Assembly (NCBI RefSeq): GCF_042453785.1
Contig: NC_091670.1
Span: forward strand, 40,125,501-40,189,500
Length of the DNA stretch: 64,000 nt
Direction: 5' to 3'
DNA from: Malus domestica
Taxonomy: Eukaryota; Streptophyta; Magnoliopsida; Rosales; Rosaceae
Under the pieces are notes generated by a model that did not search any database, was not told the origin of the DNA, and was given only the letters and a program-made list of their open reading frames with translations. The position numbers and the translations under genes were made by a program. Position 1 is the first letter of the stretch. Each line of letters begins with the position of its first letter. Positions 22,329 to 51,672 of the stretch are shown here, piece by piece.

Positions 22329-22833
22329 TTCAGGTGGTTTTTCAGACAAGACAGTGTGTACGAAAAAGACAAGACAAATTAATGAAAGAGAAAATACCAG
22401 TCAGTTGACGTTGACTGTTTATCCAAAACGACATGTCGCTTTCACGCAGTATCTGAAAAACTAAAAAAAGCGGCTGCTTTTCTCGCACAAGACTGACATA
22501 CCCTGATCTCGCGCGCGGCAGACCGAATTGACTCAGCGAGTTTACGATCGCCTGAAAAAGGCGGGATCTTTTCAAATTTTACAAGCCCTTTAAATGCCTC
22601 GACTCTCTTGCTTTTGTCCGGCGAGTTGGTTATCCGAATATATCTAACCAGCGAAACCCTCAGATTTTTGAATATTTTCAGGTGACGTATTAATTTGATT
22701 TAATATTATCCTTTTGTTCGAGTACCGGAAATTTAAGTATTAAAACGGGTGAAAACTAAATACCCTTTTGGGTTTTGAGCAAGTTTTGCTGTAATTTGAA
22801 GAGATTAAGACATACAGGAAGGGACAGCAGATA

Positions 22834-23675: not shown

Positions 23676-24311
23676 CTATGATAAATAATCGTCAGCTTCG
23701 TCCTTGTCGTCACCATCATCATGATCGGCATGATCATCAACATCGTCATCTTCATGATCGGCATGATCGGCATGATCATCATCATCATTGATAGAAAATT
23801 TGTTGATGGCCTCACCATAAGGGATGGAACCGTAATCAATAGACGAAAAGCTGAAGTTAATACGTTTGTCAGATACTAGACGTACCCCTGTTTTCTCCAC
23901 CCCGATGAACCCAGTCTCAGTGTCTCGGGCTTGTACAATAACATGGACGGAGTCGCCGCCCTCCAATTTGAAGTCTTTGTTTGAGAAATGTCCCATCCAA
24001 AGGTATTCTTCCAAACGAGCAGGCGGGTAGAAATCGGATACATCGGCATGAATGCAAGTGCACTTGGTATGATTGATAACAGAAATGGAATATGTCAAAG
24101 GAGAGTTCAACTCATAAGGACGACAAGAGAAGCACACAGCCAACGCTTTTAAATTATAACCGATTTCATGAGGCAATTGAAAACAGACTCGGTCACCCTT
24201 CTTGTTGACATTATTGAACCAAGTCGGAATATGATTTGCTCGAAGATAAATATATCCAGTACCAGTCCATCCCTATAGCATGTTCAACAAGATTTGTATA
24301 AGGTACATGGC

Positions 24312-24346
<35 letters not shown>

Positions 24347-27300
24347 CTGTAGTGTGCTATCCTTGAATAGGAATTCAGAGATTCTATTGTGCGCTCGCAT
24401 GCCAAGTATCATACCCGTGTTTAACGCCCTGTCCAAGCCCTGAAACTCAATGAGATTGGAGGAACCATCCAGAGCCACAACTCTCGGCCATCCTGATAAA
24501 TTTGCCATTCTTTCTAGTGCTGTGCAGTCATTCATACTCAAGAGACTCAAATTTGGTGGTAAATCATCAGTGATTTCAACCAGGTCTTCGCAACCATTCA
24601 AGCTTAGTCTTTGAAGCCTGGAGAGGCTACTGAAGCTTGGAAGGCTATGGAAACCATTGCGGTCCAGAAGTAATGATACCAAAGAAGATAGACTGCTGAT
24701 ATCGTTAGGAATTTCCTTTAAATTGCCGCCACTAAGATCTAATTCTCTTAATGCGTGCATGCCCATTAACGAAGGTGGTAACTTCAAAGACGACCTCATG
24801 TTACGCAGAGATAAGGACTCAAGCTTCTCCAGTAGTCCGATGGAAGATGGTACTTCTGTTATGGCCGTCTCATCTGCAACAAGGGTTGTCAAGGATGACA
24901 TTTTTCCCAAGTCCTCAGACAAGTTTTTGAATCTTGAACAACCTTTAAGAACAAGAATTTTAGCAGATTTCAACTTATAAAAAGTCCTGGGGAGTTCCTT
25001 AAGCAGTTCGCAGCCTTCCAAATTTACCAAAGCAAGACTCTTCAGATCTCCAATCGATTCGTGAACATTAGACAATCTCTTACAACCTTTGAGTATCAAT
25101 TTCTCAAGATTTGGGAGTTTTGAAAAGTCCGGCGATCGTGTTAGGTCATGGGAATGGCTGAGATTTAGAATCTTCAACTTGTAAAGCAACTGTTAGACAA
25201 AACCAAATTAAAAATCAAAATCCAAAAAGAAGATAAAGAGAGCATGATGTTTTGCACAGTACCAGAAGGAAAAAAAATATTAATTTGGTTGAGGTTACTT
25301 GGTACTTACTCCGGATTCCTCACAAAGAACTTGTCTGAGGCTGCTATATCTCATGTCAATAGCAACTATATTTGGTTGACACAAGTCTTTTGGTATGAAC
25401 TTTAGAGGGAATCCACGCCAGCACAACCATTTTAATTTTTTGGAAAGGCATTGATATCCTCCTATGAGCTGAATGTACTTGAGTTGGAGCAATCTGAGTC
25501 TCTTCATATTTGTAAATGCCTCGGTGCTGAAACTAGTCTCTTCATCAAGACTCGGCAAATTCAAAGATAGTCCTTCAATTTCTTGAGTTCCCTGCTAACC
25601 GAAACAGGCTCTAATATGAGAAGGTTTTGAATGCAAAAAAGTTCGATTGCTTACACATATATGCTTCTCTTCTATTCCTTACGCATTTAACATAAAGTTC
25701 GATCGGTAAAGTACTTACAGAATTGTCTATCAATAAAGCTTTTACATCTTCAGGACGCCACACCCTACTCCGTTTTTCAGGATACTTAGGATTTTCTGCA
25801 CGCACGATTTCTCTGCCCATGTCCCGAAGCAAATCATGCATCATTAGCTTGTTTTTTCTATTAACAGTTACAAGGCACCGTTCATGGAGGACCTCGATTC
25901 CTGCCGTTGCAGAAAAGCCACAACCATCCAAGATTTGCATGACATCAGTCTTGTCCATCCCAATAAAGAAACAAGATATATCACGGAATATCTCCCTCTC
26001 GTAATCATCATTTAGTCCGTCGTAGCTTATTTTCAGTTGTTCATGAATTTTTTCAGGAGGAATTTTGTCCAGTTTATCCAATGTACTTTTCCACACTCCT
26101 ATGCTTCTTTTGAACAGGGTAGAACCTAAAACTTGAAGAGCCAATGGCAGTCCTCCACAGTAATCAACAACTTTTCTTGCGAGCTCAAGATATTCACTAG
26201 GACAACGCTTACTTTCGAAAGCATGCCAACTTAGGAGCTCAAGAGCTTCTTCTTGTTCCATTCCTTTCGCTGGATATGTCTTATCAACTGCAAATTCTTG
26301 TAGCATATGTTCGTTTCTTGTTGTGATGATAATTCTGCTCCCCGGGCCAAAAGAGTGGCGATTTCCAGCTAATTCCCGTAGCTGCTTCACATCGTCTACA
26401 TCATCAAATATGACGAGTACCTTTAAGCGTCGAAATCTTTCCCCTACCAAGGCGGTCCCTGCAGCAACACTGTTTACCTTTGTCTTGGTCGTTTGCAAGA
26501 TATCTGAAAGTAGTTGTTTTTGCAATTTTTCTACTGCCTTTTCCCTCACTTTTTCAAGGAAACTTTTACGTTCAAACTTGTCATAAAATTTGTTATAAAC
26601 AGCTTTAGCAATCGTTGTTTTTCCTATTCCACCCATGCCCGAAATTCCAATTACGCGAACATCATTTGAATCTCCGACGACTACATATTTACTGATATCT
26701 TGCACTCGAGAATCTATTCCGACTTGGTAAGGTGCTACGTCTAAGTATGTTTTGTTCAGCACCCGAATGACTTCACTAGCAATCTCACTGATAAACCGTG
26801 CTTCAGACCTGGCAATAGTCGAGTTGAGAAGCAAAACGAAGATTGTTATGCAACTACAAGGCTAAAATGAACTAATACACAAAATTATTTATCATGACTA
26901 GAGATGTTTAATTAAGACAACTTTCTTTAAGATGTTTTGTTTAAACTTAGTAAACATCAATTAAAATTATAATTTAAATAAGAAACACAAACAAACAAAA
27001 CGCAGCATCCCCTTCCCTCCGCAGCCATTCGCCGGCGACTTCCCTGCTGTGATTAGTGTAGCCTTAACAGTTTAAGCTTTATTGTACGATTTTATTAAGA
27101 GAGGTCTAAGAATTCACAGTTGTATCATAACATGGTCCGAAGAAGGGAAATGTTTTCCTTTATTTTATTTTATGTTGCAAAGATACGGACACGGATACGG
27201 CGAAACGCCACACAGCAACATAAAAAATCTCAAAAGATAAAAACACGAACACAACTAGGACACGGCAATTAAAGTCTAATATTTACAAATATGCCCCAAA

Positions 27301-28770
27301 ATATTTTAGATTTAAGGGGTTTTTTTAACTTTAATCCTTGAAAAAAAATTGAAATTTAATAAAAACCTAGTGTTAAACTACATATTAATTATAGTCAATT
27401 GATATGTCCTTAATTAAAATTAATTATTTTTTATTTTATTCAACGTATCCCATTAAATATTTGATTTTATTAATATACACATTTTAATTTATTTTTTATC
27501 AAAAAAAAGTTTTTAAATTTATTAATTTTATTCAACATTCTTTAAACTTAAAAAACTCAATTAATGTACCTAAAATGTATGTACCAAAATGCATGAACCA
27601 AATTGTATACACCAAAATGTATTATATTAAATTAATGTTCTTAAATATGTGCATTGAAATGTATGCATAGAAATGGTAGTAGCGAAATGTATTATATTGA
27701 ATTAATGTATCGATATGTTTGTAGTGAAATGTGTGTATTAAAATGTATACAACAAAATGTATTATATTAAATTTAATATACCGAATCGAGATATATTGTA
27801 TAACAAAAATTAGTTTATCTAATGTTTACAAACGAAATATATTATGATGAAGGAAATGAAAATAATAATTAAAACTTTAAATATTATTAATAAATGAGAT
27901 TAATGTCAATGGACTAAAATTAAATTTTGACGGTACTCATGATTTTAGTCTAAAAAACATAGGTTTTATTCAATCTATAAACCAAGTAAATAGAGGTCCG
28001 TTAAAGCCTGAATGCATAAAAGAAGAAATTAGTAGATACCCGCTATCGTGAACAAAACCAGCCCAAGTTGCAACAAAACCAGCCAAACTTGCAGCTTCAG
28101 TAAGAGCAGCTCGCCACCTCGCTACCTTCTTTTTATCTGTATGTTTTAGAAACGATTGCGCAAAACTACCGGTCTGTTTCCTGACATGCGAAGGATCAAC
28201 TTTATAAAATATCGGTATAACTATTTGCCCCAGCGTTGTTCTACACTCCATGATATGAACCAGCTCCTCGAGGCACCAGCTGGAGTCCGCGTACCGTCTT
28301 GAGAAGACGATGAGAGAGATCTTAGAACCTTGGATTGCCCGCCCTAGGGCGGTAGTTATATTTTCTCCTCTTTTTAGTTCTTCGTCGTCAATAAAGGCGT
28401 TGACTCCGGCCTTTGTTAATGCTTCATAGAGGTGGCCTGTGAAGACTTTACGTGTGTCTTCGCCTCTGAAGCTTATGAACACATCGTAGAGCGAACCTTT
28501 CGAGAAGGAGACAGACGACGAGGAGGACAAGGAGGTGGAGGATGATGAAGAGGAGGTTTCATCGGGGACCGAGATGGACGAGGAGGAGGAGGAGGAGGAG
28601 GTGGAGGATGATGAAGAGGAGGCTTCATCGGGGACCGAGATGTTCATTTGGCGAAAGACAAGGCCGATAGAGAAGAGGAGGAAGACGAGGACAGCAAAGT
28701 GGTAGGACTCTAAGCAACCACATACCAGCACCATGATTGACAGCGTCACTAATTTCCGCCAGTTATCCAT
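23676..28770 (-). CDS. TNL1: membrane-anchored TIR-NB-ARC-LRR disease-resistance protein, intact
   Basis: An intracellular-type immune receptor. Exons are 28770-28040 (TIR), 26808-25719 (NB-ARC), 25591-25310 (LRR start), 25189-24347 (LRR) and 24272-23676 (C-JID-like plus tail). Phases agree and the product is 1180 aa with no stop. The N-terminus carries a hydrophobic segment (about residues 7-40) and a Ser-rich linker with two repeat units. The TIR follows with DVFISFRGEDTRK and the catalytic-Glu context DSSWCLEELV. NB-ARC motifs are GMGGIGKTT (P-loop), VLVIFDDVDD (kinase 2), GSRIIITTRNEHM (RNBS-B), GGLPLAL and LMMHDLL (MHD). LRRs follow, then a post-LRR domain (IPTWFNNVN...) and an Asp/His-rich tail. 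The TIR end has an extra segment (FVATWAGFVHDS) compared with its paralogues. Best match in the cluster is TNL3. Confidence 0.9.
23695..23788. repeat. Trinucleotide repeat coding for the Asp/His-rich C-terminal tail of TNL1
   Basis: An imperfect ATC/ATG repeat on the plus strand encodes alternating Asp and His/Ala at the end of TNL1 (DDDDHADHADHEDDD and following). Longer and shorter versions end TNL3 (44690-44822) and TNL2 (about 34828-34885). Confidence 0.85.
24317..24345. repeat. (GA)n microsatellite in TNL1 intron 4, abutting the splice donor
   Basis: A (GA)n run on the plus strand, (CT)n on the coding strand, starts within a few bases of the intron-4 donor. Equivalent but longer runs are in TNL2 (35408-35461) and TNL3 (45341-45386), so the tract varies in length among paralogues. 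Confidence 0.85.
26809..28039 (-). other. TNL1 intron 1, with degenerate AAATGTAT-type repeats
   Basis: The 1.2-kb AT-rich intron separates TIR from NB-ARC exons. Between about 27560 and 27790 it holds many degenerate copies of a motif like CCAAAATGTATNTA. A related array is at about 49840-50130 in the intron of the fourth unit. A short conserved patch near 27000-27065 (GC-rich, ...CCATTCGCCGGCG...) is also shared with 47815-47875 and 49250-49315. Confidence 0.6.
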
Positions 28771-28925
28771 TTCTTTGATTTTTTTTTTTTTACCAGCTCA
28801 GCTGCTAGCCAACCCACTCCAGCTACAAAACAGAGAGGATGAGCAGCTGCAGACCCACGCCTGCCAATTTGAGAATAGCTTCCTGCAGCAACCCACTTCG
28901 CTGAAGCTTCATCCACTCCTCAAGT
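28771..28925 (-). promoter_or_regulatory. Upstream region of TNL1, conserved in the fourth TIR unit
   Basis: About 120 bp upstream of the TNL1 start is nearly identical to 51555-51672, upstream of the TIR exon at 50767-51536. It probably contains the shared leader and core promoter. I cannot identify a TATA box with confidence. Confidence 0.45.
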
Positions 28926-32686: not shown

Positions 32687-32789
32687 GATTCGTCGTCGCT
32701 ACATTACTGGCAGTCTCACAACACATGCATCTTTTTCCCAAGACAAATCTCACTCATCTCTGGCAATCTTCAAGCAAAGCATTAGCGTT

Positions 32790-34395
32790 TCAAATGTGCT
32801 TTACTAGGAAGGTGAGGATCAGCTGATTGACCTCGTCAGGCGACTGTTCTTGAACAAAATGCGTTCCTTCGGGAAGAAATACAATCTCCAAATTGGGGGC
32901 AAACTCTTTGACCTTTCCACTGCTTATGTAAACCTCTATCCCAGGAAATTTGCTCGAATAATCCTTGCCTCCCCTTATAAGAAGTGCTGGAGCTTTAACT
33001 ACTGGATCTGATACAGCGAACTCGTCTCTAATTGCCCTATCAATGTGTAAAAAAGAGTTCAACACTCCTTAAATGTGGTTACAACTTGGTAGAATGCTAG
33101 GTGCGATCGTTTCACATTAGTTAGTTTTCATCAACAGTTAAAGAGTATGCGACAGCATAAACCACTTGATCAATTGCACTACCTGTATGGAACTTGCAGC
33201 GCAGTTCCGAAACCTGATTTCTCATACAAAGCTCCATATGCTGCAAGAACCAAGGGGGAAGAGTCATAGATGGATCCACGAGGTTCATAATCTCCTGGTC
33301 TTCTGCAGCTATTGGTATTTCGCTTCTGGAGAAAAGGATGTAAACATTACGAACAACTGTTTTCACATCAAGGCGCCCAAAATCAGCCTCTGCTCGTCCA
33401 GGTTCCTGCAACAGAGGTAACAGTTAGTTGCAAAACTCGCAAGCAAATCATGCTTGCAAAGGTATATGACATATAACAAGGTAAATGCACACCTGCCATC
33501 TTGAAATGTAGAGACCTTCTCGGAGAGATTTATCGATTCTACGAGGGCCTGGTGACATGATTGGCGCTCCCATTGTTACAACGCCTAAGACCCTCTCCGC
33601 GTGCAGAAGGGAAAATAATGTCGTCACCCCAACTCCAAAATCTTTTGCAATTAGGAAAACCTATGCAAATTTGAATACAATTTTTAGAGCCTTAAATCTT
33701 GAATACAATTACCAACTAGCTTTATGAGTAGTGATACTTCGAATCCTACTCCGATTACAACAACAACAAAGTTTTATTCCACTAATTATTCGCTGCGATT
33801 TTGGAGATGCCATTGCAATCGCATCCCAAACTAATTATTCGCCGACAAGCATTACAATGACATCTCGTTGTATGTAAGTTTCTCTCAACTTCTACCAAAA
33901 CAAAAGGGAGAAAGACTTGTGTAATTAAGCAAATTAATCGGAATTAATAATTAAGGAGAAGAATCCGGAGACAAGGTTTCTTTCTAACAAGTACCTTCGG
34001 GATAGCAAGGGAATCAAGAATTCCAAGGATGTCACTGGCGAGGTCACGGTACGAGGTCTTCTCGGATTGGGAAGGCGGGTCGGATAGTCCGTATCCGTGG
34101 TAGTCGGGAGCGATGGCCCGGAATCCGACGTTGGCTGCCGCAATCATCTGGAGCCGCCACGAGTACCAAATTTCCGGGAAACCGTGCAGGAACACGACCA
34201 CATTGGAGCCTATGATAAACAAAAAAATAAAAAAAGACGGGATCGATCGGTTGTGTTTGTGTTCGATTATATTAAGAATAATAAATGGTGTGCGGACGAG
34301 AAAGTGGGGAGGAAGATAATCTGACCTGTTCCGATGTCGGCGACGTGGAGCTTGAGGCCTTGTACGGTTACGTACTTGTGCTGGATTTTCTCCAT
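32790..34395 (-). pseudogene. Soluble epoxide hydrolase-like gene, copy 2 (frameshifted)
   Basis: This is the duplicate of the gene at 20367-22328, with exons 34395-34326, 34209-33995, 33660-33493, 33405-33183 and 33036-32790. Exon lengths match copy 1 (215 and 168 bp for exons 2 and 3), and the intact last exon begins RAIRDEFAVSDPVVKAPALL. In exon 4 a 13-bp deletion (223 versus 236 bp) shifts the frame after DPSMTLPPWF, losing the rest of the cap and the C-terminal His region. The two copies thus broke by different lesions: copy 1 lost the last-exon border, copy 2 shifted in exon 4. A productive transcript from either copy would need unusual splicing. Confidence 0.85.
33757..33786 (-). repeat. 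Stub of the RTE-type LINE
   Basis: Only the tail (ATTACAACAACAACAAAG...) of the LINE seen at 21308-21660 remains in the same intron of the second epoxide hydrolase copy. The rest was deleted after the block duplicated. Confidence 0.55.
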
Positions 34396-34598
34396 TTCAG
34401 GTCGTTTTTCAGGCAAGACAAGGTGTACGAACAAGACAATGTTTGGACTTGCAAATGGTAATCCCAAAACGCCATGTCCTTCAATGCATTTTCGGAAAAA
34501 CTATGGATCGCGGCGGACCGAGTCTTTTCAGATTTTACAAGCCCTTTAATCCCTCGACTCTCTTGCTTTTATCTGGCGCAATTGGATTATCTTTGACT

Positions 34599-34825: not shown

Positions 34826-35404
34826 TCATATATAATCACCAGAATCATCATCATCAGAAGCAGAATCATCATCATCATAATTGAAATAAAATTTGTAGAT
34901 GGCCTCATCATAAGGGATAGAACCCGTAAATAAAAGCGAAGATTCGAAGCTAATAAGTTTGTCAGCTACTAGACGTACGCCTGTTTTCGTCACCCTGATG
35001 AGCTCAGTCTCACTGTCTTGTACTTGGATTTGTACAATAACATGGACGCAGTCGCCTCCCTCCAAATTGAAGATGACGTTTGGTAAATGTCCCATCCAAA
35101 GGTAATCTTTAAAGCGAACAGGTGTGTAGAAATCGATTATAGAGGCAAAAATGCAAGTGCACTTGGTATGATTAACAACAAAAAAGTAATTTCTCAAAAA
35201 AGGGTTCAACTCGTAATGACGAGAACCGATGCACACAGCCAACGCTTTTAAATTACAACCGATTTCCTGAGGCACTTGAAAACAGACTCGGTCACCATTG
35301 TTGTTGACATGATTGAACCAAGTCGGAATATGCTTTCCTAGAAGAGAAATATATCCACAACCAGTCCATCCCTGTAGATGTTCAACAGGATTTGTATAAG
35401 TAAT

Positions 35405-35469
<65 letters not shown>

Positions 35470-38400
35470 CGAGCCTGTAGCGTGCTATCCTTGAGTAGGA
35501 ATTTAGTGATTCTGTTGTGCGCTCGCATGCCAAGTATCATGCCCGTGTTTAACATGCTATCCAAGCCTCGAAACTCAATGAGCTTGGGGCAACCATCTAG
35601 AGACACCACTTCTGGCCTTCCCGGTAAGTTTGGCATTCTTTCTAGTGCAATGCAGATATTCATCGATAGGTAACCCAAATTTGGTGGTAAATCATCAGTG
35701 ATTTCAACCAGGTTGATGCAAAAATCCAAGCTTAGTGCTTGAAGCTTGGAGAGGCCACTGAAGCTTGGAAGGCTATGGAAACCATTGCGGTCCAGATTTA
35801 CTTCTTCTAAAGAAGATAGATTCCTGATATCGCTAGGAATTTCCTTTAAATTGCAGCCACTAAGATCTAATTCTCTTAATGCGTGCATGCCCATTAACAA
35901 AGGAGGTAACTTCAAAGACCACCTCAAGTTACACAGAGATAAGTACTCGAGCTTCTCCAGTCGTACGATGGAAGATGGTACTTTTAGTATGGCCGTCTCA
36001 TCTGCAAGAAGTGTTCTCAAGGATGCCATTTCTCCCAAGTCCTCAGACAAGATTTGGAATCTTGAACATCCTTTAAGAACAAGAATTTCAATAGTTTTTA
36101 ACTTATAGAAACTTCTCGGGAGGTCGTTAAGCATTTCGCAGCCTTCCAAATTTACCAAAGCAAGACTCTTCAGATCTCCAATCGATTCGTGAACATTACA
36201 CAATCTCTTACAACCTTTGAGTATCAATTTCTCAAGATTTGGGAGTTTTGAGAAGTCCGGCGATCGTGTTAGGTCATGGGAATGGCTGAGATTTAGAATC
36301 TTCAACTTGTCAAGCATCTGTTAGACAAAACCAAATTGAAAATCAAAATCAAAATCCAAAAAGAATATAAAGAGAGCATGATGTATTGCAAAATACCAGA
36401 AGGAAAAAAATTATTAATTTGGTTGAGGTTACATAGTACTTACCCCGGACTCCTCACAAAGAACTTGTCTAAGGCTGCTATATCGCATGTCGATAGCGAC
36501 TATATTTGGTTGACACAAGTCTTTTGATATGAACTCTAGAGGGAATCCACGCCAGCACAACCATTTTAATTTTTTGGAAAGATATTGATATCCTCCTGTG
36601 AGCCGAACGTACTTGAGTTGGAGCAATCTGAGTCTCTTCATATTTGTAAATGCCTCACTACTGAAACTAGCCTCTTCATCAAGACTCGGCAAATTCAAAG
36701 CCAGTCCTTCAATTTCTTCAGTTCCCTGCTAAATAAGAGAGGGTTTTGCATGCAAAAAAGTTCTATTACTTGCGTATATATGCTTCTCTTCTATATTTCT
36801 ATTACTTACATATTTGACATAAAGTTCGATCGGTAAAGTACTTACAGATTTGTCTATCAATAAATCTTTTACAACCTCAGGACACCAGAGTCTACTCTGT
36901 TTTCCAGGATACTTAGGATTTTCTGCACGCACGATTTCTCTTCCCATGTCCCGAAGCAAATCATGCATCATTAGCTTGTTTTTTCTATTAACAGTTACAA
37001 GGCATCGTTCAAGGAGGACCTTGATTCCTGCCGTTGCGGAAAAGCCACAACCATCCAAGATATACATGACATCGTTCTTGTCCATTCCAATGAAGAAACA
37101 AGATATATCGCAGAATATCTCCCTCTCGTAATCATCATTTAGTCCGTCGTAGCTTATTTTTAGTTGTTCCTGAATTTTACCAAGAGGAATTTTTTTCAAT
37201 TTGTCCAATGTACTTTTCCATTCTCCTATGCTTCCTTTGAACAGGGTAGAGCCTAAAACTTGAAGAGCCAATGGCAGTCCTCCACAGTAATCGACGACTT
37301 CTCTTGCGAGGTTGAGATATTTTCTAGGACAACAACTACTTCTGAAAGCATGCCAACTAAAAAGCTCAAGAGCTTCTTCTCGTTCCATTCCTTGTGACCG
37401 ATATATCACATCAACTGCAAATTCATTTAACACATGTTCATTTCTTGTTGTTATGATAATTCTGCTCCCCGGACCAAAAGAGTGGCGATTTACAACTAAT
37501 TCGTCTAGTTGCTTCACATCATCTACATCATCTAAGATGACAAGTACTCTTAAGCATCGAAATCTTTTCCCTACCAAGGCGGTCCCTTTGGCAATACTGC
37601 TTACTTTTGTCTTAGTTTGCAAGATATCAGAAAGAAGTTGGTTTTGCAAGTTAACTAGGTTCTTTCCCCTCATGTTTTCAAGGAAACTCTTACCTTCAAA
37701 CCTGTCATAAAATAGGTTATAAATGGCTTTAGCAATCGTTGTTTTACCTATTCCACCCATACCTGAAATTCCAATCATGCGAACATCATTCGAATCTCCG
37801 ACACCTAAATAATTACTGATATCTTTAACTCGAGATTCTATTCCTACTTGGTATTGCGCTACGTTTAAGTATGTGTTGTTCAGCTTCGTACTGACTTCAT
37901 TAGTAATCATACCGATAAACTTTGCTTCATTCCTGGCATTAGTCAAGTTGAGAAGGAAAACTAAGATTGTTATACAACTACAAGACTAAATAATAAAACT
38001 AAAGCATATTATTGATCACGAGTACTATGGATTTTCAAGGCAAAATATATGTTAACTAATTTAAGCTGCGCTCATGAAGTTTTGCTGAATCAAATCTTTC
38101 ATTGCCCTTAATTTTGTTAAACTTCTAAAACATTCATAATTAAAGAGGCCTCATATTGAAAAACAGTACATAATAGTACAGGATGGTGAATAAATTATGT
38201 AAAATAAAATGAAAGAGAGAATTAGTAAGTACCCGTCCATAGTGTTTTTGAGATCCCAGCCAGACAAATTCAAAGCTTCAGTAAGAGCAGTTCTCCACCT
38301 TCCTGCCTTCTTTTCATCTGAATGTTTCAGAAACGATTGTGCAAAACTACCAGTCTGTTTCCTGACATGCGAAGGATCAACGTCATAGAATATCGGCAAA

Positions 38401-38885
38401 ACTAATTGCCCCAGCATTGTTTTACACTCCATGATCTTAACCAGCTCCTCGAGGCACCAGCTGGAGTCCACGTACCGTTTTGAGAAGACAATGATAGAGA
38501 TCCTAGAACCCTGGATTGCCCGCACAAGTTCGGTAGTTATATCTTCTCCTCTTCTTAGTTCTTCATCGTCAATAAAGGTGTTGATTCCAGCCTTCGTTAA
38601 TGCTTCATGGAGGTGGCCCGTGAAGTTTTTACGTGTGTCTTCGCCTCTGAAGCTTATGAACACTTCGTAGAGTGAACCCTTCGAGAAGGAGAAGGACGAG
38701 GAGGAGGACAAGGAGGTGGAGGATGATGACGAGGAGGCTTCATCGGGGACCGAGATGTTCATTTGGCGAAAGACAAGGCCGATGGAGAAGAGGAGGAAGA
38801 CGAGGACAGCGAAGTGGTAGGACTCTAAGCAACCACATACCAGCACCATGATTGACAGCGTCACTAATTTCCGCCAGTTATCCAT
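34826..38885 (-). CDS. TNL2: membrane-anchored TIR-NB-ARC-LRR resistance protein, altered last splice donor
   Basis: Exons are 38885-38233 (TIR), 37932-36846 (NB-ARC), 36725-36444, 36317-35475 (LRR) and 35371-34826 (C-JID-like plus short Asp/Ser tail). Exons 3 and 4 have exactly the TNL1 lengths (282 and 843 bp). Only one linker repeat unit precedes the TIR. P-loop, kinase 2, RNBS-B, GLPLAL and MHD motifs are all present. The donor after exon 4 reads CTACAG|GCTCGTTC where TNL1 and TNL3 have CTACAG|GTTCTC, a 4-bp (GCTC) difference. Use of GC at the old position gives 1136 aa. Use of the GT four bases later shifts the frame and stops soon after, and intron retention adds a Ser-Leu run ending YKSC at 35382. 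Met at 38885 is chosen to match TNL1; an upstream in-frame Met (39020) lacks support. Confidence 0.85.
35408..35461. repeat. (GA)n microsatellite in TNL2 intron 4
   Basis: A run of about 27 GA units (CT on the coding strand) lies just inside intron 4, the longest of the three in the cluster. Confidence 0.9.
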
Positions 38886-39489: not shown

Positions 39490-40378
39490 CTGCTCTTAGA
39501 CAGATATATTGTAGCTAACAGAATAGACATGATCACCTGGTGCTGTATACCCGATTGTCGCGAGGGTCTTCGTTCGTGCTGTAGATGCCCCTTCGCCCAA
39601 GAGTTTGGAAATGCCAAAATCAGATACATGCGCAACCATATCTTCATCAAGAAGAACATTGCTTGGCTTTATGTCACAATGAACGATCGGCATTGAATAA
39701 CCATGATGCAGATACTCCAATGCTAATGCAACATCCACAATTATGTTCAGTCTTTGCAGCATGTCCAAAAAAACAGTTGCGAGAGTGCAACCATTTCTCG
39801 AGGCTTCCGTTAGGCATGTATTCGAGTATCAAAGCTTTGAAATCAAAACTGGAACAACTTGTGCTGATTTTGATGGGATTTCTGTGGCGGACATTTTGCA
39901 GTGTTTTACATTCAGTATCAAAAGTCTTGGAAGCTGCTTCGGTGTCTGTGTCCATGTTGAATACCTTGATGGCCACGTTATTATTGAAAAGTATTGCTTT
40001 GTAACACATAACTGAAGCCTCCTGCCTAGCAAGTTGCTCTCATCGAAACCATTCCTGGCAAGCAGAAGTTCGTGGTAGGAATCCTTTTTGGCGCAGGTAA
40101 AGGGAATGATGCATCCTCTGGATTTAGTACTTTGCTTTTCTTTCTATGATATTTTTTCCTTGCAAGTACACAAAGTAGTAGCAGCATTATTGACACAGTT
40201 GTTGGCAGTACAATCTTCAATACGTGCAACTGACCTCTCCTTGCTTTCGCAGGTTTTCTATTGCAGGCCGGGACATTCAATCTAGCAGTGCCACATAGTG
40301 CTTTGTTAATCATAAAAGATTCAGCTGCAAAGTTGGCGAAGGGGCCCCTTTTTGGAATTTCTCCTTCCATACTCTCAG
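39490..40378 (-). pseudogene. LRR receptor-like kinase fragment (LRR end, membrane segment, partial kinase)
   Basis: Read on the minus strand, the pieces run MEGEIPKRGPFANFAAESFM, then a membrane segment (VLPTTVSIMLLLLCVLA), then kinase N-lobe (VAIKVFNMDTDTEAASKTFD) and catalytic loop IVHCDIKPSNVLLDED with DFGISKLLGEG. They match LRR-RLK subfamily XII (EFR/XA21-like). Frames shift between pieces, the Gly-rich loop region is damaged and the C-lobe is missing, so it is a pseudogene with several breaks. It abuts the VIP5 fragment exactly at 40378/40379 on the opposite strand, which looks like a rearrangement join. Confidence 0.85.
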
Positions 40379-43166
40379 GTTCGTTCATCAGCTAGATCTG
40401 CTGACAGGGCAGCTGCCAAGGATGATGCATTGAATGAGTTACGAGCAAAACGTTTGAAGCAACATGACCCTGAGGCTCACCGCAAGTTGAAAGATGCTTC
40501 TAGTGGAGGAAGTTCAAGCAATCGAAATTTCTCACACCTGAACAGGAAATCCTTCACTGCAGTGGGTCGGAGTAGATCTAGTCAGAGTGACAGTGATAGT
40601 AGGTCTCGTAGTGAAGATGAAGGATCATCAGGGGATGGCACAATGATTGACAGTGACGATGAAAGGTCAGAGGGACTAACTTTAGATGATATAAAGGAGA
40701 TTACCATTCAAAAGTTGAAAATTGCAAATTGGTTTATGGAGCCGTTTTTTTATGAGTTAATTGTGGGTTGCTTTGTGAGGGTTGGAATTGGGAGGTCAAA
40801 ATCTGGGCTATCTACAGGCTCTGCAGTTGAATATCAGAGTGCACAACGACCAAGATTACAAAATAATAAGAATATTATTAAACTAACAAAAATGGCAGAA
40901 CGGCTACAAAATCCTAAGAGACTACATTGTGAATAACTTATTCTCTAACTAAATTACAAGCTCTATTTATAGAGCAATAAACCAAAGAAATCCTAATGCG
41001 TATATGCCAAAAATACCCTACTACAAAATCAAATCAAATCTCTAATTAATTTCCTAAATAAACCTAATAAATTCCAACACCCCCCATCAAACTCATGGCG
41101 GTACACGACATGAGTTTGCCAACAAGCAGATGTGGATGCAAGCCTCCAAATTCCGATGCCGATGCCGATTTCCGATGCCAATTTCAATACGAAATTCCAT
41201 CGGTGCAAGTGCAAGATTTCAATGCCAGTGCAAGATTTCTATGCCAGTGCAAGATTCCAATGCCAGTATCAGTGCAAATGTCGATGCCGATGCCTAACAA
41301 ACAAACAAAAAATCCAACCAAATATTTTTTTTCTTCCTTCTTTCTTCCTTTTTTTCCTTCTGTGCGATTCCTTCCTCTTTTTTTTTACCTTCTGTGCGAA
41401 CCAACGTGCGACCCAACATCACCAACCTCCTTCCTTTTTTTCTTTTGTGCGAACCAACATCACCAGCCTCTTTTTTTTTTTTTTTTTTTTTTTTTCCACG
41501 AGGGTACGGTTGTGGACGGATCCAGATGCAGGGTGGGGCTGGAGAATGCAGAAATCCTAGTGCGATGGATTCACCAAATTCCTTTTTTCAAAAAACAGAA
41601 TTTTTTTTCCCTTTCTTGAAGACTACCAAGGACAAACTGAAAACCAAACCAGAAAACGTAAAAAATCTACGGACAAGACTAACACAATTTGACGGTCAAT
41701 ACCGAAATCCAAAGACAAAGAACATAAACAGAAATCCAAAGACAAAACGAACAAAAACAGAGTGACCAAGAACAAAGGACACAGACCAAAGCGGAAGCGA
41801 AAGCCTAAACGAGACCCAAACTAAACCAAAAAACAAAAAGCAACAAAACAAATTGATACCAACAAGAACGGATTGAACCATAAGGATCGAACCCGCTCTG
41901 ATACCAAGTTGAATATCAGAGTGCACAACGACCAAGATTACAAAATAATAAGAATATTATTAAACTAACAAAAATGGCAGAACGGCTACAAAATCCTAAG
42001 AGACTACATTGTGAATAACTTATTCTCTAACTAAATTACAAGCTCTATTTATAGAGCAATAAACCAAAGAAACCCTAATGCGTATATGCCAAAAATACCC
42101 TACTACAAAATCAAATCAAATCTCTAATTAATTTCCTAAATAAACCTAATAAATTCCAACATCTGCATGGTCCGGAATGTTGATGCTTCAGATACTGATC
42201 GACAGTACAAACTAGAGAACAAAACCACACTTAAGTATCTGAATGTTGTTTAGGGCAATGAGAACTCTGCTGCCAGGTGGCAGATGGCTATGATTTCCAA
42301 CTCTGTGCCACTGGAGGAGGAGTTTAAACAGTGGGTTAGAGAGGCGGAGAGAAGTGGTGGCCAGTTGCTAAGCAAAGAGAATGTGTTGGAAAAGGAGGCC
42401 ATAAAAAAAAAAGGAACTCATTTGTCTACTCAGCCGCAACCGTGAAGCAGATGATACAGGAGAAAAAGTCTGCTTCGTCAAGGCCATTAAACATTGCACT
42501 TGAGAAGGACCGGTTGAGGAGGGGGAGTTAGAAGTTGCAAAAAGTAAGCAAGACGATGCAGAGGTGGAGAGGATCCATACAAGATTGCAGCAATTAGAAG
42601 CACGCCGGCAATCACAGGGGAAAGATAGCAAGGCTATTAGGCTTGCTGAGATGAACAGAAAAAAAACAGGGTTGCATAAAGAATTAAAACCTAAGAATAT
42701 AGGTTTGAAAGCGGGGGAGGCCGGTTATGATCCTTTTTCAAGAAGATGGACTAGGTCAAGGAATTACTGTGTCAAAGACCGGTGAACAAAAAGGGGAGGC
42801 AGATGCAATTGCCGAGGCTGATGGAGCCTTGGCAGATACGGAACAGCAGTGGTGGGAGCAGTAAGGGCCGGTATGGCAGCTACTGCAGCGGCTCTGGAAG
42901 CTGCAGCTGGTGCGGGGAAGCTGATTGATACGAGTGCTCCTCTTGATTTTGGAACAAAGTCAAATGTAAAGCACAATTTTGAGGTCCCAATGTCATTGGC
43001 CGCTCTTCAAAAGTTTGGCGTGCCGCAAGGAGCTCAGGAAGGGTTCGTGGCAAGAAAACAGCGAATAGAAGCAACGGTTGAGTGTCGAGTCCCAGAGAAT
43101 GACGGGCAGAGGCATGCACTGACACTTTCAGTTAGCGACTACAAGAGATGAAGAGGGCTTCTCTGA
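40379..43166 (+). pseudogene. VIP5/RTF1 (Paf1 complex) pseudogene, long copy
   Basis: It begins inside the parent coding region at VRSSARSADRAAAKDDALNE, runs through the acidic/Ser-rich part and into the Plus3 domain (LIVGCFVRVGIGRSKSG), where a small LTR element (40825-42161) is inserted. After the element it resumes with CMVRNVDASDTDRQYKLENK, then NSAARWQMAMISNSVPLEEE, with several frame breaks and stops, and ends near VSDYKR. One premature stop replaces the last residues (RRGLL in the shorter copy). It is intronless in the stretch seen. The 3' flank matches the shorter copy at 22834-23166, so both come from one duplicated ancestor. Confidence 0.88.
40825..42161 (-). mobile_element. Small non-autonomous LTR retrotransposon (TRIM-like), complete and young
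   Basis: Two 255-bp direct LTRs (40825-41079 and 41907-42161) differ at about one position, so the insertion is very recent. On the minus strand the LTR begins TGTTGG. The primer-binding site TGGTATCAGAGC (complementary to initiator Met tRNA) follows the 5' LTR directly, and a G-run polypurine tract precedes the 3' LTR. Target duplication is TCTGC (40820-40824, 42162-42166). An LTR TATA-like CTATAAATAGAGC is present. The 827-bp interior has no gag or pol and is low-complexity, so it depends on other elements for movement. It looks whole as a non-autonomous element. Confidence 0.92.
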
Positions 43167-44515: not shown

Positions 44516-44689
44516 TTAACCACCACCGCAACAGTTGAAAATAAAAAGGTATTAACCACACTAAGTGAACGCATTTTTAAAGAAATAATATAACCACACT
44601 AAGTGAAAGCTGATCCGTCTCTGTACTCAGTCAAATACTGGTATCAAACCTCAATCTCTAATGGTCTATGATAAATGATCGTCAGCGTC

Positions 44690-44822
44690 GTCCTTGTCGT
44701 CATCATCATCATGATCGGCATGATCATCATCATAATCATGAATGGCATGATCATCATCATCGTCATGAACAGCATGATCATCTTCATTGTCATGATCGGC
44801 ATGATCATGATCATCATCATAA
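44690..44822. repeat. Trinucleotide repeat coding for the long Asp/His tail of TNL3
   Basis: An imperfect ATC/ATG array on the plus strand encodes Asp-rich runs punctuated by His and Ala (HADHDDDDDKDD near the end). It is about 40 codons long, the longest of the three TNLs. Confidence 0.85.
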
Positions 44823-45337
44823 AATTTGTTGATGGCCACATCATAACGGATGGAACCGTAATCAATAGACGAAAAGCTGAAGTTAATACGTTTGTCAGAT
44901 ACTAAACGTACCCCTGTTTTCTCCACCCTGATGAACCCAGTCTCAGTGTCTCGGGCTTGTACAATAACATGGGCGGAGTCGCCGCCTTCCAGTTTGAAGT
45001 CGTCGTTTGAGAAATGTCCCATCCAAAGGTATTCTTCCAAGCGAGCAGGCGGGCAGATATCGGATACATGGGCATGAATGCAAGTGCACTTGGTATGATT
45101 AACAACAGAAACGGAATATGTCAAAGGAGAGTTCAACTGATAAGGACGACAAGAGAAGCACACAGCCAACGCTTTTAAATTATAACCGATTTCATGAGGC
45201 ACTTGAAAACAGACTCGGTCACCCTTCTTGTTGACATTATTGAACCAAGTCGGAATATGATTTGCTCGAAGATAAATATATCCAGTACCAGTCCATCCCT
45301 ATAGCATGTTCAACAAGATTTGTATGAGGTATATGAC

Positions 45338-45388: not shown

Positions 45389-45649
45389 CTGTAGTGTGCT
45401 ATCCTTGAATAGGAATTCAGTGATTCTGTTGTGCGCTCGCATGCCAAGTATCATACCAGCGTTTAACGCCCTGTCCAAGCCCTGAAACTCAATGAGATTG
45501 GAGGAACCATCTAGAGCCACAACTCTCGGCCATCCTGATAAATTTGGCATTCTTTCTAGTGAAGTGCAGTCATTCATACTCAGGAGACTTAAATTTGGTG
45601 GTAAATCATCAGTGATTTCAACCAGGTCTTCGCAACCATTCAGGCTTAG

Positions 45650-45780
45650 GGGGGTGTATTCAATTGAGAATGTGAGAGATTTTAATGGATTTATAAATCC
45701 ATGGATTTTTATGGAGTTTAATTGATTTGTAGAGATTCCATATAAAATTTTGATTCAATTCCCTCGAAATCTCATGGGAA
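45650..45780. mobile_element. MITE end replacing LRR coding sequence in TNL3
   Basis: The insert starts GGGGGGTGTATTCAATTGAG, a form I recognise from plant MITE ends, and contains the palindrome-like ATTTATAAATCCATGGATTT. A matching opposite end is not obvious, so only one end or a degraded copy is present. Deletion of neighbouring LRR codons accompanied the event. Confidence 0.55.
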
Positions 45781-48341
45781 GAACAAGAAATTTAGCAGAT
45801 TCCAACTTATAAAAAGTATTAGGGAGATTCTTAAGCATTTTGCAGCCTTCCAAATTTACTAAAAATAGACTCTTCAGATCTCCAATCGATTCGTGAACAT
45901 TAGACAATCTCTTACAACCTTTGAGTATTAATTTCTCAAGATTTGGGAGTTTTGAAAAGTCCGGTGATCGTCTTAGGTCATGGGAATGGCTGAGATTTAG
46001 AATCTTCAACTTGTCAAGCAACTGTTAGACAAAACCAAATTAAAAATCAAAATCAAAAACCAAAAAGAAGATAAAGAGAGAATGATGTTTTGCACAGAAC
46101 TTGGTACTTACCCCGGATTCTTCACAAAGAACTTGTCTGAGGCAGCTATATCTCATGTCAATAGCAACTATATTTGGTTGACACAAGTCTTTTGGTATGA
46201 ACTTTAGAGGGAATCCACGCCAGCACAACCATTTTAATCTTTTGGAAAGACATTGATATCCTCCTGTGAGCTGAATGTACTTGAGTTGGAGCAATCTGAG
46301 TCTCTTCATATTTGTAAATGCCTCAGTGCTGAAACTACCCTCCTCATCAAGACTCGGCAAATTCAAAGACAGTCCTTCAATTTCTTCAGTTCCCTGCTAA
46401 CCAAAAACAGGCTCGAAATATGAGAAGGTTTTGCATGCAAAAAAGTTCGATTGCTTACGTACACATATATGATTCTCTTCTATTCCTTACGCATTTAACA
46501 TAAAGTTCAATTGGTAAAGTACTTACAGAATTGTCTATCAATAAAGCTTTTACATCTTCAGGACGCCACAACCTACTCCGTTTTTCAGGATACTTGGGAT
46601 TTTCTGCACGCACGATTTCTCTACCCATGTCCCGAAGCAAATCGTGCATCATTAGCTTGTTTTTTCTATTAACAGTTACAAGGCACCGTCCATGGAGGAC
46701 CTCGATTCCTGCCATTGCAGAAAAGCCACAACCATCCAAGATCTGCATGACATCATTCTTTTCCATCCCAATAAAGAAACAAGATATATCGCAGAATATC
46801 TCCCTCGCGTAATCATCATTTAGCCCGTCGTAGCTTATTTTCAGCTGTTCATGAACTTTTCCAGGAGGAATTTTTTCCAGTTTATCCAATGTACTTTTCC
46901 ACTCTCCTATGCTTCTTTTGAACAGGGTAGATCCTAAAACTTGAAGAGCCAATGGCAATCCTCCACAGTAATCGACAACGTCTCTTGCGAGCTCTAAATA
47001 TTCACTAGGACAACACTTACTTCCGAAAGCATACCAACTTAGGAGCTCAAGAGCTTCTTCTTGTTCCATTCCTTTCGCCGGATATATCTTATCAACTGCA
47101 AATTCTTGTAGCATATGTTCGTTTCTTGTTGTGATGATAATTCTGCTCCCCGGGCCAAAAGAGTGGCGATTTCCAGCTAATTCGCGCAGCTGCTTCACAT
47201 CGTCTACATCATCAAATATGACAAGTACTTTTAAGCGTCGAAATCTTTCCCCTACCAAGGCGGTCCCTGCAGCAACATTGCTTACCTTTGTCTTGGTCGT
47301 TTGTAAGATATCTGAAAGAAGTTGGGTTTGCAATTTTTCTACTTCCTTTTCCCTCACTTTTTCAAGGAAACTTTTATGCTCAAACTTGTCATAAAATTCG
47401 TTATAAACAGCTTTGGCAATCGTTGTTTTTCCTATTCCACCCATGCCCGAAATTCCAATCACACGAACATCATTTGAGTCTCCGACGCCTAAATATTCAC
47501 TGATATCTAGCATTCGAGAATCTATTCCAACTTGGTAGGGCGCTACATCTAAGTATGTGTTGTTCAGCTTCTTAGTGACTTCACTAGTAATCATACTGAT
47601 CAACTTTGCGTCATCCCACCTGGCATTAGTCGAGTTGAGAGCAAAACGAAGATTGTTATACAACTATAAGACTAAATTGAACTAATACACAAAATTATTC
47701 ATCCTGACTAGAGATTTTTATTTAAGACAATTTTCTTTGAGATGTTTTGTTTAAACTCAGCAAACATCAAGTAAAATTTAAGTTAAAATTTAAATAAGAA
47801 ACACAAACAAACAAAACCCAGCATCCCCTTCCATTCGCCGGCGTGGCTTCCCTGCTGTGATTAGTGTAGCCTTAAAAGTTTTAAGCTTTATTGTATGATT
47901 TTATTAAGAGAGGACTAAGAATTCACAGTTGTATGTATAAACATGATCCGAAGAAGGGAAAGGTTTTCCTTTATTTTATTTTATGTTGCAAAGATACTCA
48001 CACGGATACGACGAAATGCGTCACACCAACACAAAAAATCTCAACAGGTACGAACACAAACACAGCTAGGACATGACAATTAAAGTCTAAAAAATTTAAA
48101 ATAAATATTACATAAGTTTTTATATTTACGAAACCGCCCGAAATGTTAGGTGTTATAAGTTTTTATATTTACATATATGCCCCAAAATATCTTAGATTAA
48201 AGGTTTGTTTTTCTTTTTCTTTTTATTTTAAAACTTTAATCCTTGAAAAAGATTGAAATTTGATAAAAATATGGTGTCAAACTAGATATTGATAGAGTTA
48301 CGTTAATGCCTGAATTCATAAAAGAAGAAATTAGTAGATAC

Positions 48342-49051
48342 CCGTCTAAAGTGTTTCTGTGATCCCAGCCAAACAAATATGAAGCTTTAGTAAGAGCAAC
48401 TCTCCACCTTTCGACCTTCTTTTTATGTGTATGTTTCAGAAACGATTGTGCAAAACTACCAGTCTGTTTCCTGACATGAGAAGGGTCAACATGATAGAAT
48501 ATCGGCAAAACTATTTGCCCCAGCGTGTGTCTACACGTCATGATATGAACCAGCTCTTCGAGACACGATCTGGAGTCCGCGTACCGACTTGAGAAGACGA
48601 TGAGAGAGATCTTAGAACCTTGGATTGCCCTCACTAGTTCATTGGTTATATCTTCGCCTCTTTTTAGTTCTACGTCGTCAATAAAGGCGTTGACTCCAGC
48701 ATTTGTTAATGCTTTATAGAGGTGGCTTGTGAAGCTTTTACGTGTGTCTTCGCCTCTGAAGCTTATGAACACATCATAGAGCGAACCTTTCGAGAAGGAG
48801 AAAGACAACGAGGAGGACAAGGAGGTGGAGGATGATGAAGATGAGGCTTTAGCAATCGTTGTTTTTCCTATTCCACCCATGCCCGAAATTCCATTCATGC
48901 GAACATTATTTGAATCTCCTACACCTAAATATTTACTGATATCTAGCACTCGAGAATCTATTCCGACTTGGTAGGCATTACGTCCAAGTATGTGTTGTTG
49001 AGCCTCAAAGCGACTTCACTAGTAATCTTACTGATAAGCGCTGCTTCATTC
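48342..49051 (-). pseudogene. Chimeric NB-ARC/TIR exon joining two TNL units
   Basis: From its acceptor at 49051 this exon begins like an NB-ARC exon (NEAALISKITSEV) and, after a small frame-changing deletion near 48974, reads DISKYLGVGDSNNVRMNGIS and GMGGIGKTTIAKA. At about 48845-48848 it switches abruptly to the Ser-rich linker and a complete TIR (DVFISFRGEDTRK), ending at a normal TIR-exon donor at 48342. The switch shares the microhomology AAGC. The frame from Met at 48949 is open for 202 codons and in phase with the TNL3 NB-ARC exon. The TIR has Ser for the usual Trp in the catalytic region (DSRSCLEELV). The membrane segment is gone. It is probably the product of a deletion between tandem TNLs. 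Confidence 0.85.
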
Positions 49052-49839
49052 CTGGCATTAGTCGAGTTGAGAAGCAAAACGAAGATTGTTATACAACTAC
49101 AAGACTAAATTGAACTAATACACAAAATTATTTATTATGACTAGAGATTTATTAATAAGACAATTTTCGTGCGATGTTTTGTTTAAACTTAGTAAACATC
49201 AATTAAAATTTAAATTTAAATTTAAATAAGAAACACAAACAAACAAAACCCAGCATCCCCTTCCTCCGCAGCCATTCGCCGGCGACTTCCCTGTCGTGAT
49301 TACTGTAGCCTTAACAGCTTAAGCTTTATTGTACGATTTTATTAAGAGAGGTCTAAGAATTCACAGTTGTATGCATAAACATGATCCGAAGAAGGGAAAG
49401 GTTTTCCTTTATTTTATTTTATGTTGCACAGATAGGGGCATGGATATGTCAGAAACAGGACACGGTTACACGAAAAATCTCAAAAGATAAGAACACGAAC
49501 ACAACTAGGACATGACATGTAAATTCTAATAAATTTATAATAAATATTACATAAGTTTTTATATTTACATAACTGCCCGAAATGTTAGGTGTTATAAGTT
49601 TTTGATATTTACAAATATGCCCCAAAATATTTTAGATTAAAGGATTTTTTAACTTTAATCTTTGAAAAATATTGAAATTTAATAAAAATCTGGTGTTATA
49701 CTACATATTAATTATAGTTCATTGATATGTCCTTAATTCAAATTAATTAATGTGTATTTTATTTAATGTTTCCCATTAATTATTCATTTGATTTAACATT
49801 CTTTAAATTTGAAAGACTCAATTAATGTACCTAAAATGT

Positions 49840-50576: not shown

Positions 50577-50766
50577 TTGAATTGTCCCAAAATGTTTTTA
50601 TATTTACAAAAAGATCCCTGCCGTGTCTTGATCGTGTCAAAACCGTGTCCGAACACTTTGGGGTTTCCCAGTGTTGGTGCAACATAGGTTTTATTGAATC
50701 TATAAACCGAAAGTAAATAAAGATACGTTAAAGCCTGAATTCATAAAAGAAGAACTTAGTAGATAC

Positions 50767-51536
50767 CTGTTTTCGAGATGCCATCCAGCCAAATTTGCAG
50801 CAAGAGTAAGAGCAGCTCTCCACCTCGCTACCTTCTTTTTATCTGTATGTTTCAGCAACGATTGCGCAACACGACCAGTCTGTTTCTTGACATCCGAAGG
50901 ATCAATGTCATAGAATATCGGGTAAACCATTTGTCCCAGCGTTGTTCTACACTCAATGATATGAACCAGCTCCTCGAGGCACCAGCTGGAGTCCGCGTAC
51001 CCGCTTGAGAAGACGACGATTGACATCTTAGAACCTTGGATTGCCCGCACTAGTACGTTAGTTAATTCTTCTCCTCTTTTTATTTCTTCTTCGTCAAAAA
51101 AGACGTTGACTCCGGCATTTGTTAATGCTTTACGGAGGTGGCTTGTGAAGCTTTTACGTGTGTCTTTGCCTCTGAAGTTTAAGAACACATCGTAGAGCGA
51201 ACCTTTCGAGAAGGAGAAGAACGACGAGGAGGACAAGGAGGTGGAGGATGATGAAGAGGAGGCTTCATCGGGGACCGAGAAGGATGACGAGGAGGACAAG
51301 GAGGTGGAGGATGATGAAGAGGAGGCTTCATCGGGGACCGAGATGGACGACGAGGAGGACAAGGAGGTGGAGGATGATGAAGAGGAGGCTTCATCGGGGA
51401 CCGAGATGCTCATTTGGCGAAAGACAAGGCCGATAGAGAAAAGGAGGAAGACTAGGACAGCAAAGTGGTAGGACTCTAAGCAACCACATACCAGCACCAT
51501 GATTGACAGCGTCACGAATTTCAGCCAGTTATCCAT
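50767..51536 (-). CDS. TNL4: membrane-anchored TIR exon, probably a TIR-only (TX-like) protein
   Basis: The exon begins MDNWLKFVTLSIMVLVCGCL with the membrane segment, then a linker with three copies of a 21-residue Ser-rich unit, then a full TIR (DVFLNFRGKDTRK, DSSWCLEELV, FFDEEEIKRGEE). It ends at a GT donor at 50767/50766. Spliced to the next acceptor (49051), translation continues NEAALISKIT... for about 30 codons and stops, giving about 287 aa. So the unit probably encodes a membrane-bound TIR with a short tail, like the TIR-X class of plant proteins. Its upstream region (51555-51672) matches that of TNL1. No NB-ARC or LRR remains in frame. Confidence 0.75.
51215..51410. repeat. 63-bp minisatellite coding for the Ser-rich linker (three units in TNL4)
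   Basis: Three units of about 63 bp encode ISVPDEASSSSSSTSLSSSS and variants. TNL1 has two units (28525-28650) and TNL2 one (38695-38765). The opposite strand shows long Glu/Asp- or Arg-rich open frames, which are shadows of this repeat. Confidence 0.88.
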
Positions 51537-51672
51537 TTCTTAGATTTTTTATTTTTTTTTTGTTACCAGCTCAGCTGCTAGCCAACCCGCTCCAGCTACA
51601 AAACAGAGAGGATGAGCAGCTGCAGAACTACGCCTGCAAATTTAAGAATAGCTTCCTGCAGCAACCCACTTG

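Follow-up and report, generated by a model that had tools for sequence, protein, structure and literature searches.

The window, as the whole stretch of DNA analysed here is called (64,000 nt, G000:C10:40125501-40189500, in a 651-Mb genome of 19 contigs), contains three TNL genes, all of them on the minus strand: TNL A, TNL B and TNL C (51536-44666). The models of A and B were built with splice sites common to the family, and a chimeric exon sits within TNL C (Table 1). In the parent units, the TIR, NB-ARC and winged-helix domains are all matched by the corresponding profiles (PF01582, PF00931 and PF23282). In TNL C, the TIR1 exon corresponds to a Pfam TIR match (E 1.8e-48) upstream of the first NB part, and the second NB-ARC is likewise recognised by Pfam (E 4e-32). 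For the post-LRR exon of this gene, which we take to be a C-JID, a Pfam search at E 0.01 gave no match. Long Asp/His-rich tails are present at the C-termini of TNLs C (44666-44830) and A (23676-23790).

Table 1. Positions of the TNL genes used for comparison and of the parts of TNL C, in window coordinates.
Feature	Position	Strand	Remark
TNL A	23676..28770	-	open 1180-aa model, comparator
TNL B	34826..38885	-	open 1136-aa model, comparator
TIR1 exon of TNL C	50767..51536	-	N-terminal hydrophobic stretch, Ser linker, TIR; phase-2 donor
NB-ARC half of chimeric exon	48846..49051	-	ends at GMGGIGKTTIAKA; 1-nt deletion near 48975
Junction microhomology AAGC(C)	48845..48849	-	
Ser linker and TIR2 half of chimeric exon	48342..48845	-	phase-2 donor
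NB-ARC and winged-helix exon of TNL C	46527..47619	-	phase-2 acceptor
Short exon after NB-ARC exon of TNL C	46112..46393	-	
LRR exon of TNL C, shortened	45389..46021	-	stop TGA at 45757-45755
Post-LRR exon of TNL C	44666..45298	-	Asp/His-rich tail

Other features accompany these genes. Beside TNLs A and B lie two duplicated segments (20367-22372 and 32754-34439) of about 93% identity, in which pieces of hydrolase-like ORFs can be discerned by eye; the tandem unit seems, from its sequence, to reach beyond the TNL itself. On the minus strand, positions 39496-40391 carry broken pieces whose translation resembles a leucine-rich-repeat receptor kinase. In addition, the segment 40825-42161 contains two copies of a 255-bp repeat at a distance of 1082 bp from each other (99.6% identity), one of which is adjoined by what is presumably a TGGTATCAGAGC-like primer site. 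The 255-bp repeat is found in at least 38 other places at 91-94%, of which 24 form 12 pairs separated by 0.7-1.1 kb, and the whole segment resembles a short, probably non-autonomous element of the LTR type.

A preliminary description of this DNA had reported a chimeric exon at 49051-48342 on the minus strand, and both the existence of the exon and its exact coordinates hold. As that description stated and alignment confirms, the exon reads as the NB-ARC exon of a TNL up to GMGGIGKTTIAKA and, from there on, as the TIR and the preceding Ser-rich linker of a different TNL. Its first 206 bases (49051-48846) align with the 5' end of the NB-ARC exon in each of the three TNLs, the intron upstream of it aligns with those of A and C, and the remaining part (48845-48342) aligns with Ser linker and TIR exons. 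The exon edges, CCAG/G and GG/GTATCT, match the corresponding sites in the neighbouring TNL genes: the acceptor agrees with its counterparts in all three genes, and the same is true of the donor with respect to A, B and the TIR1 of C. The TIR2 donor is, as had been proposed, in phase with the NB-ARC exon at 47619, and the junction itself is in frame. Furthermore, the P-loop, the linker and TIR2 share one frame that is open from 49015 (a 259-aa ORF), and no LRR is present between the first NB part and TIR2 in TNL C. When this chimeric ORF was searched with Pfam, a TIR was found at residues 80-222 (E 2.6e-51), together with a 27-residue piece of NB-ARC at residues 35-61 (E 8e-4) whose score of 19.1 bits falls below the cut-off of 23.5 bits, as expected, since only a fragment of the domain is there. 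With respect to ordinary TNLs (Roq1, A and B), each half of the chimera aligns to its usual domain. The PDB entry of Roq1 matches both parts (the P-loop stretch weakly, with an i-Evalue of 0.012), but the order is inverted: the TIR comes first in Roq1 (4-160, with the P-loop region at 187-231) and second in the chimeric ORF (72-223, after a P-loop region at 13-58).

The joint itself shows the AAGC microhomology that had been noticed (48849-48846), or AAGCC if the NB parent was like gene B. The NB parents read AAAGC(T/C), the TIR parents GATGAAGCCTC and the chimera GCTAAAGCCTC, which gives 4 or 5 bases in common; with the true parents gone, this length can be stated only approximately. When gene B's own NB and N-terminal sequences were joined at random 200,000 times, 4 or more matching bases occurred in 1.6% of the joints and 5 or more in 0.5%. 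Self-alignment shows colinear units in A (27956-28898 / 26602-27281) and C (50681-51671 / 48846-49531), with the colinearity broken at 48846. Gene C can be described as a colinear TIR-intron-NB half unit followed by a TIR-intron-NB-LRR unit, likewise colinear, which lacks its N-terminal coding part. This arrangement and the microhomology joint give good support to the earlier proposal that sequence was deleted between tandem TNL units; such a loss would explain the joint, and so would an unequal exchange of which the joint is the deletion product. According to the mechanism proposed here, a deletion at 4-5 bp of microhomology would join two neighbouring minus-strand TNL genes, with one breakpoint just past the P-loop codons in the NB-ARC exon of the upstream gene and the other at the Ser-linker codons in the TIR exon of the downstream gene, and the product would be a TIR-NB'-TIR-NB-LRR (TNTNL-type) gene.

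The chimeric exon might instead be an error of assembly, but this is highly improbable. The window contains no Ns, and the best matches elsewhere are of 88-89% for the NB half and of 86-88% for the TIR half (figures which exclude pieces of Ser linker of 40-52 bp at 92-93%), so that the join is not one between two copies present in the assembly. Besides, a second NB-ARC/TIR fusion exists on another contig.

The reading frame of the window copy is broken. The 1-nt deletion in the chimeric exon occurs in one of 14 aligned NB exons (a fifteenth row, C12_41, is missing from this alignment since the P-loop pattern did not pick it up, and reads without a stop in another comparison); in consequence, the exon measures 710 nt, and its acceptor half and its P-loop/TIR half stand in different frames. 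Spliced from TIR1, the chimeric exon adds 31 residues and stops at the TAG at 48960-48958, for a total of 287 aa, and no single frame runs through all the domains of the window copy after splicing. With the chimeric exon skipped, the phases of TNL C fit and its start is that of an ordinary TNL; translation then runs for 803 aa before it meets a stop in the LRR exon. This LRR stop is borne by a 138-bp fragment of a high-copy repeat (45646..45783, minus strand), with at least 39 other places at 99-100% identity among the 45 matches listed (the best 40 of 1031 candidates were scored). Compared with gene A, about 350 bp of LRR sequence are missing in TNL C.

Two steps of decay after the fusion can be proposed: (i) the 1-nt deletion, which would break the frame of the fused exon; and (ii) the insertion of the repeat, which would add a stop in the LRR exon. 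Since the stop lies upstream of a later splice junction in both splice forms, decay of the message is to be expected, and both transcripts, with their stops after 287 and 803 aa, are predicted targets of nonsense-mediated decay. Given the frame break on the acceptor side and the lesion in the LRR exon, the window copy is, judging from its sequence, most likely a decayed pseudogene. The same two lesions leave unsupported, for this copy, the working P-loop-TIR-NB-ARC protein that had been envisaged. Against decay, it must be mentioned that both splice sites of the chimeric exon are preserved and that TIR2 is still open across its exon and looks constrained. A constrained TIR2 is unusual for part of an old pseudogene, and most of its history may predate the fusion.

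Selection on the TIRs was assessed by means of pairwise dN/dS, which is unable to date the fusion, and of counts of private changes in 15 TIRs (129 gap-free codons). The window TIR2 has a dN/dS of 0.31-0.55 against the 14 other TIRs, with 4 synonymous and 2 nonsynonymous private codon changes; one of the latter two (W71S) has removed the Trp of SxWCLEEL, kept in the other 14. The window NB half ranges from 0.34 to 1.19 in 13 comparisons based on few sites. The TIR1 of gene C gave values of 1.50 vs A, 1.28 vs B, 0.55 vs TIR2 and 0.69-0.97 vs 11 C5 and C12 rows, and its private changes amount to 2 synonymous and 7 nonsynonymous. The pattern of TIR1 is not clear-cut: it would fit a copy released from functional constraint or, alternatively, diversifying selection. 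At window positions 50767-51206, TIR1 has nine private residues at places where the other 14 TIRs agree.

These values bear on a different reading of the locus, in which the chimeric exon is an alternative exon whose inclusion yields a short membrane-anchored TIR protein of 287 aa. Shortened proteins that take part in resistance are known from other TNL genes, the acceptor and the donor are conserved, and inclusion gives TIR1 plus the 31 residues and then the stop. Nevertheless, TIR1 looks relaxed or diversifying, not conserved, in its comparisons with A and B, and this reading is regarded as quite unlikely. It is also very unlikely that translation of the fusion persists, by way of a cryptic acceptor (at 48935 or at 49013) or of an internal Met in MNGISGMGGIGKTT, and yields a (TIR-)P-loop-TIR-NB protein whose LRR is cut. 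Although entry at either of these AG sites would bring back the frame with no stop, and P-loop, linker and TIR2 stand in one open frame, both sites have poor pyrimidine tracts and adjoin an intact canonical acceptor, the LRR stop persists, and TIR2 is devoid of the SxWCLEEL Trp.

The second fusion is found on C5. Its gene model (C5:43501697-43507956, or L029 1697-7956; minus strand) is open over 1732 aa and comprises TIR-NB-TIR-NB-LRR and a post-LRR exon; the C-terminal tail is Asp/Glu-rich. In the fusion exon (L029 6869-5256), an NB-ARC is fused to a hydrophobic stretch, a Ser linker and a TIR within a 574-aa ORF. Pfam recognises the NB-ARC (E 1.9e-30) and the TIR (E 2.4e-52) of this ORF, and gave no winged-helix match for the fused NB-ARC. 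The exon is in frame, its breakpoint is other than that of the window, and the joint has only about 2 bases in common with the TIR parent. As its length of 1614 nt is a multiple of three, both forms are open, with 1732 aa when the exon is included and 1194 aa when it is skipped. In the C5 copy, a hydrophobic stretch is kept before each TIR, and both stretches (residues 30-48 and 542-560) pass a simple hydropathy cut.

The C5 cluster is syntenic with the window according to the two flanking markers tried, both of which were found, at C5:43535435 (93%) and C5:43457512 (80%). The flanking genes are presumably a sugar/polyol-type transporter (93%) and a WAPL-like exon (80%). The flanked interval does not include two further members of this TNL group, which are found at C5:43.37 and 43.41 Mb. 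As for selection, the C5 fused TIR shows dN/dS values of 0.17-0.26 in three chosen pairs, 0.32 vs the window TIR2 and 0.69 vs the window TIR1. The open frame is nonetheless weak evidence of selection, because the fused NB is at a dS of only 0.07 from its nearest C5 neighbour, C5_30, and the C5 fusion may simply be young. The C5 gene is the more promising candidate of the two fusions.

The trees place the two fusions apart. In the NB tree, the window NB half groups with A and C (91/91, not starred) and the C5 fused NB falls within six C5 rows (98/97, starred). In the TIR tree, the window TIR2 groups with A and TIR1 (100/98, starred) and the C5 fused TIR with C12 rows (94/91). When the two fusions were forced together, the result was 48.1 log units worse for the NB (AU p 3.5e-5) and 28.4 log units worse for the TIR (AU p 6.4e-4), for a pair that was chosen by structure, but after earlier trees of the same data had been viewed. 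One could alternatively think of a single old fusion, older than the split between the C10 and C5 clusters, the window copy being the same fusion after further internal deletion. Both fusions are in syntenic clusters, a second deletion could turn a C5-type joint into that of the window, and gene conversion could conceal an old origin. However, a common clade is rejected for both halves by the AU test, and the C5 fused NB, which over its 5' segment shares 97% identity with the neighbour C5_30, is at the short distance from it already mentioned; a single old origin is highly improbable. The window and C5 fusions probably arose independently of each other, which is likely rather than proven, as gene conversion within clusters could mimic the tree result. 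For the account as a whole (that is, a deletion between tandem units, later decay of the window copy, and an apparently independent, similar fusion on C5), we would put the probability at roughly three in four.

Regarding the domain order, which the preliminary description did not know from ordinary TNLs, both TNTNL and NTNL are already in print: an excerpt of PMC3782705 lists TNTNL for both Arabidopsis and Medicago, with NTNL for the latter as well, and reports the TNTNL RPP2A as functional in resistance. Two TNTNL genes are counted for Arabidopsis in an excerpt of PMC2175511, where RPP2A is given the TNTNL label; At4g19500 and At4g36140 are given as TIR-NBS-TIR-NBS-LRR in part of PMC4008172; and RPP2A is paired with RPP2B in a portion of PMC12856790. 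Arabidopsis RPP2A / At4g19500 and At4g36140 have the same TIR-NB-TIR-NB-LRR order in one gene, a likeness drawn by domain order alone; in contrast to these TNTNL receptors, the window copy is frame-shifted and its LRR is cut. The NTNL of Medicago truncatula, likened here by class name alone from the excerpt of PMC3782705, has an NB part ahead of TIR-NB-LRR, like the window order. In the open-licence full-text literature, no account was found of an apple NBS-LRR gene under the label TIR-NBS-TIR. This kind of TNL fusion is, then, already known, and the added interest is the second fusion, open and apparently independently made, in a syntenic cluster.

One broken and one open fusion in syntenic clusters make up a natural record of how doubled TNLs of the RPP2A type may come into being: tandem units would be joined, at a few bases which they share, by a deletion that keeps the frame, and the resulting exon would be skippable in frame if its length is a multiple of three. 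The open C5 gene is, in addition, a concrete candidate for asking if doubled TIRs change signalling. A more far-reaching reading would take the C5 gene for a working double receptor of 1732 aa, with two membrane-anchor-like stretches and convergent with Arabidopsis RPP2A, and would have in-frame doubled receptors recur by tandem-unit deletion in the TNL arrays of this genome, the window copy being a decayed independent case, perhaps read via a cryptic acceptor; this is conceivable but unlikely.

Concerning the spacing of TIRs, the same-strand neighbours among 216 TIR places (pooled from the best 150 of 848 and the best 150 of 516 candidates) include 10 pairs less than 8 kb apart and two less than 3 kb apart, the latter being those of the window (2425 bp) and of C5 (1985 bp); NB-TIR fusions without an upstream TIR are missed by such a survey. 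A search with the NB-ARC family listed 123 places of 894 candidates, none of them in the three TNL clusters studied, and is therefore uninformative here. Six other candidates for fusion (C2:36131543, C2:1734322, C2:1944731, C2:3295516, C5:43465783 and C5:43520585) were discarded, all six having the TIR before the NB, i.e., the normal order, with no NB match upstream of the TIR in the flanking stretch examined; they are the matches in which the query starts at residue 41 or earlier, starts at 45-53 being mostly outside this check. Finally, at G000:C5:4073099-4073644, a TIR match covers the whole Pfam profile within an open frame of 554 aa, longer than most TIR exons among the matches listed.
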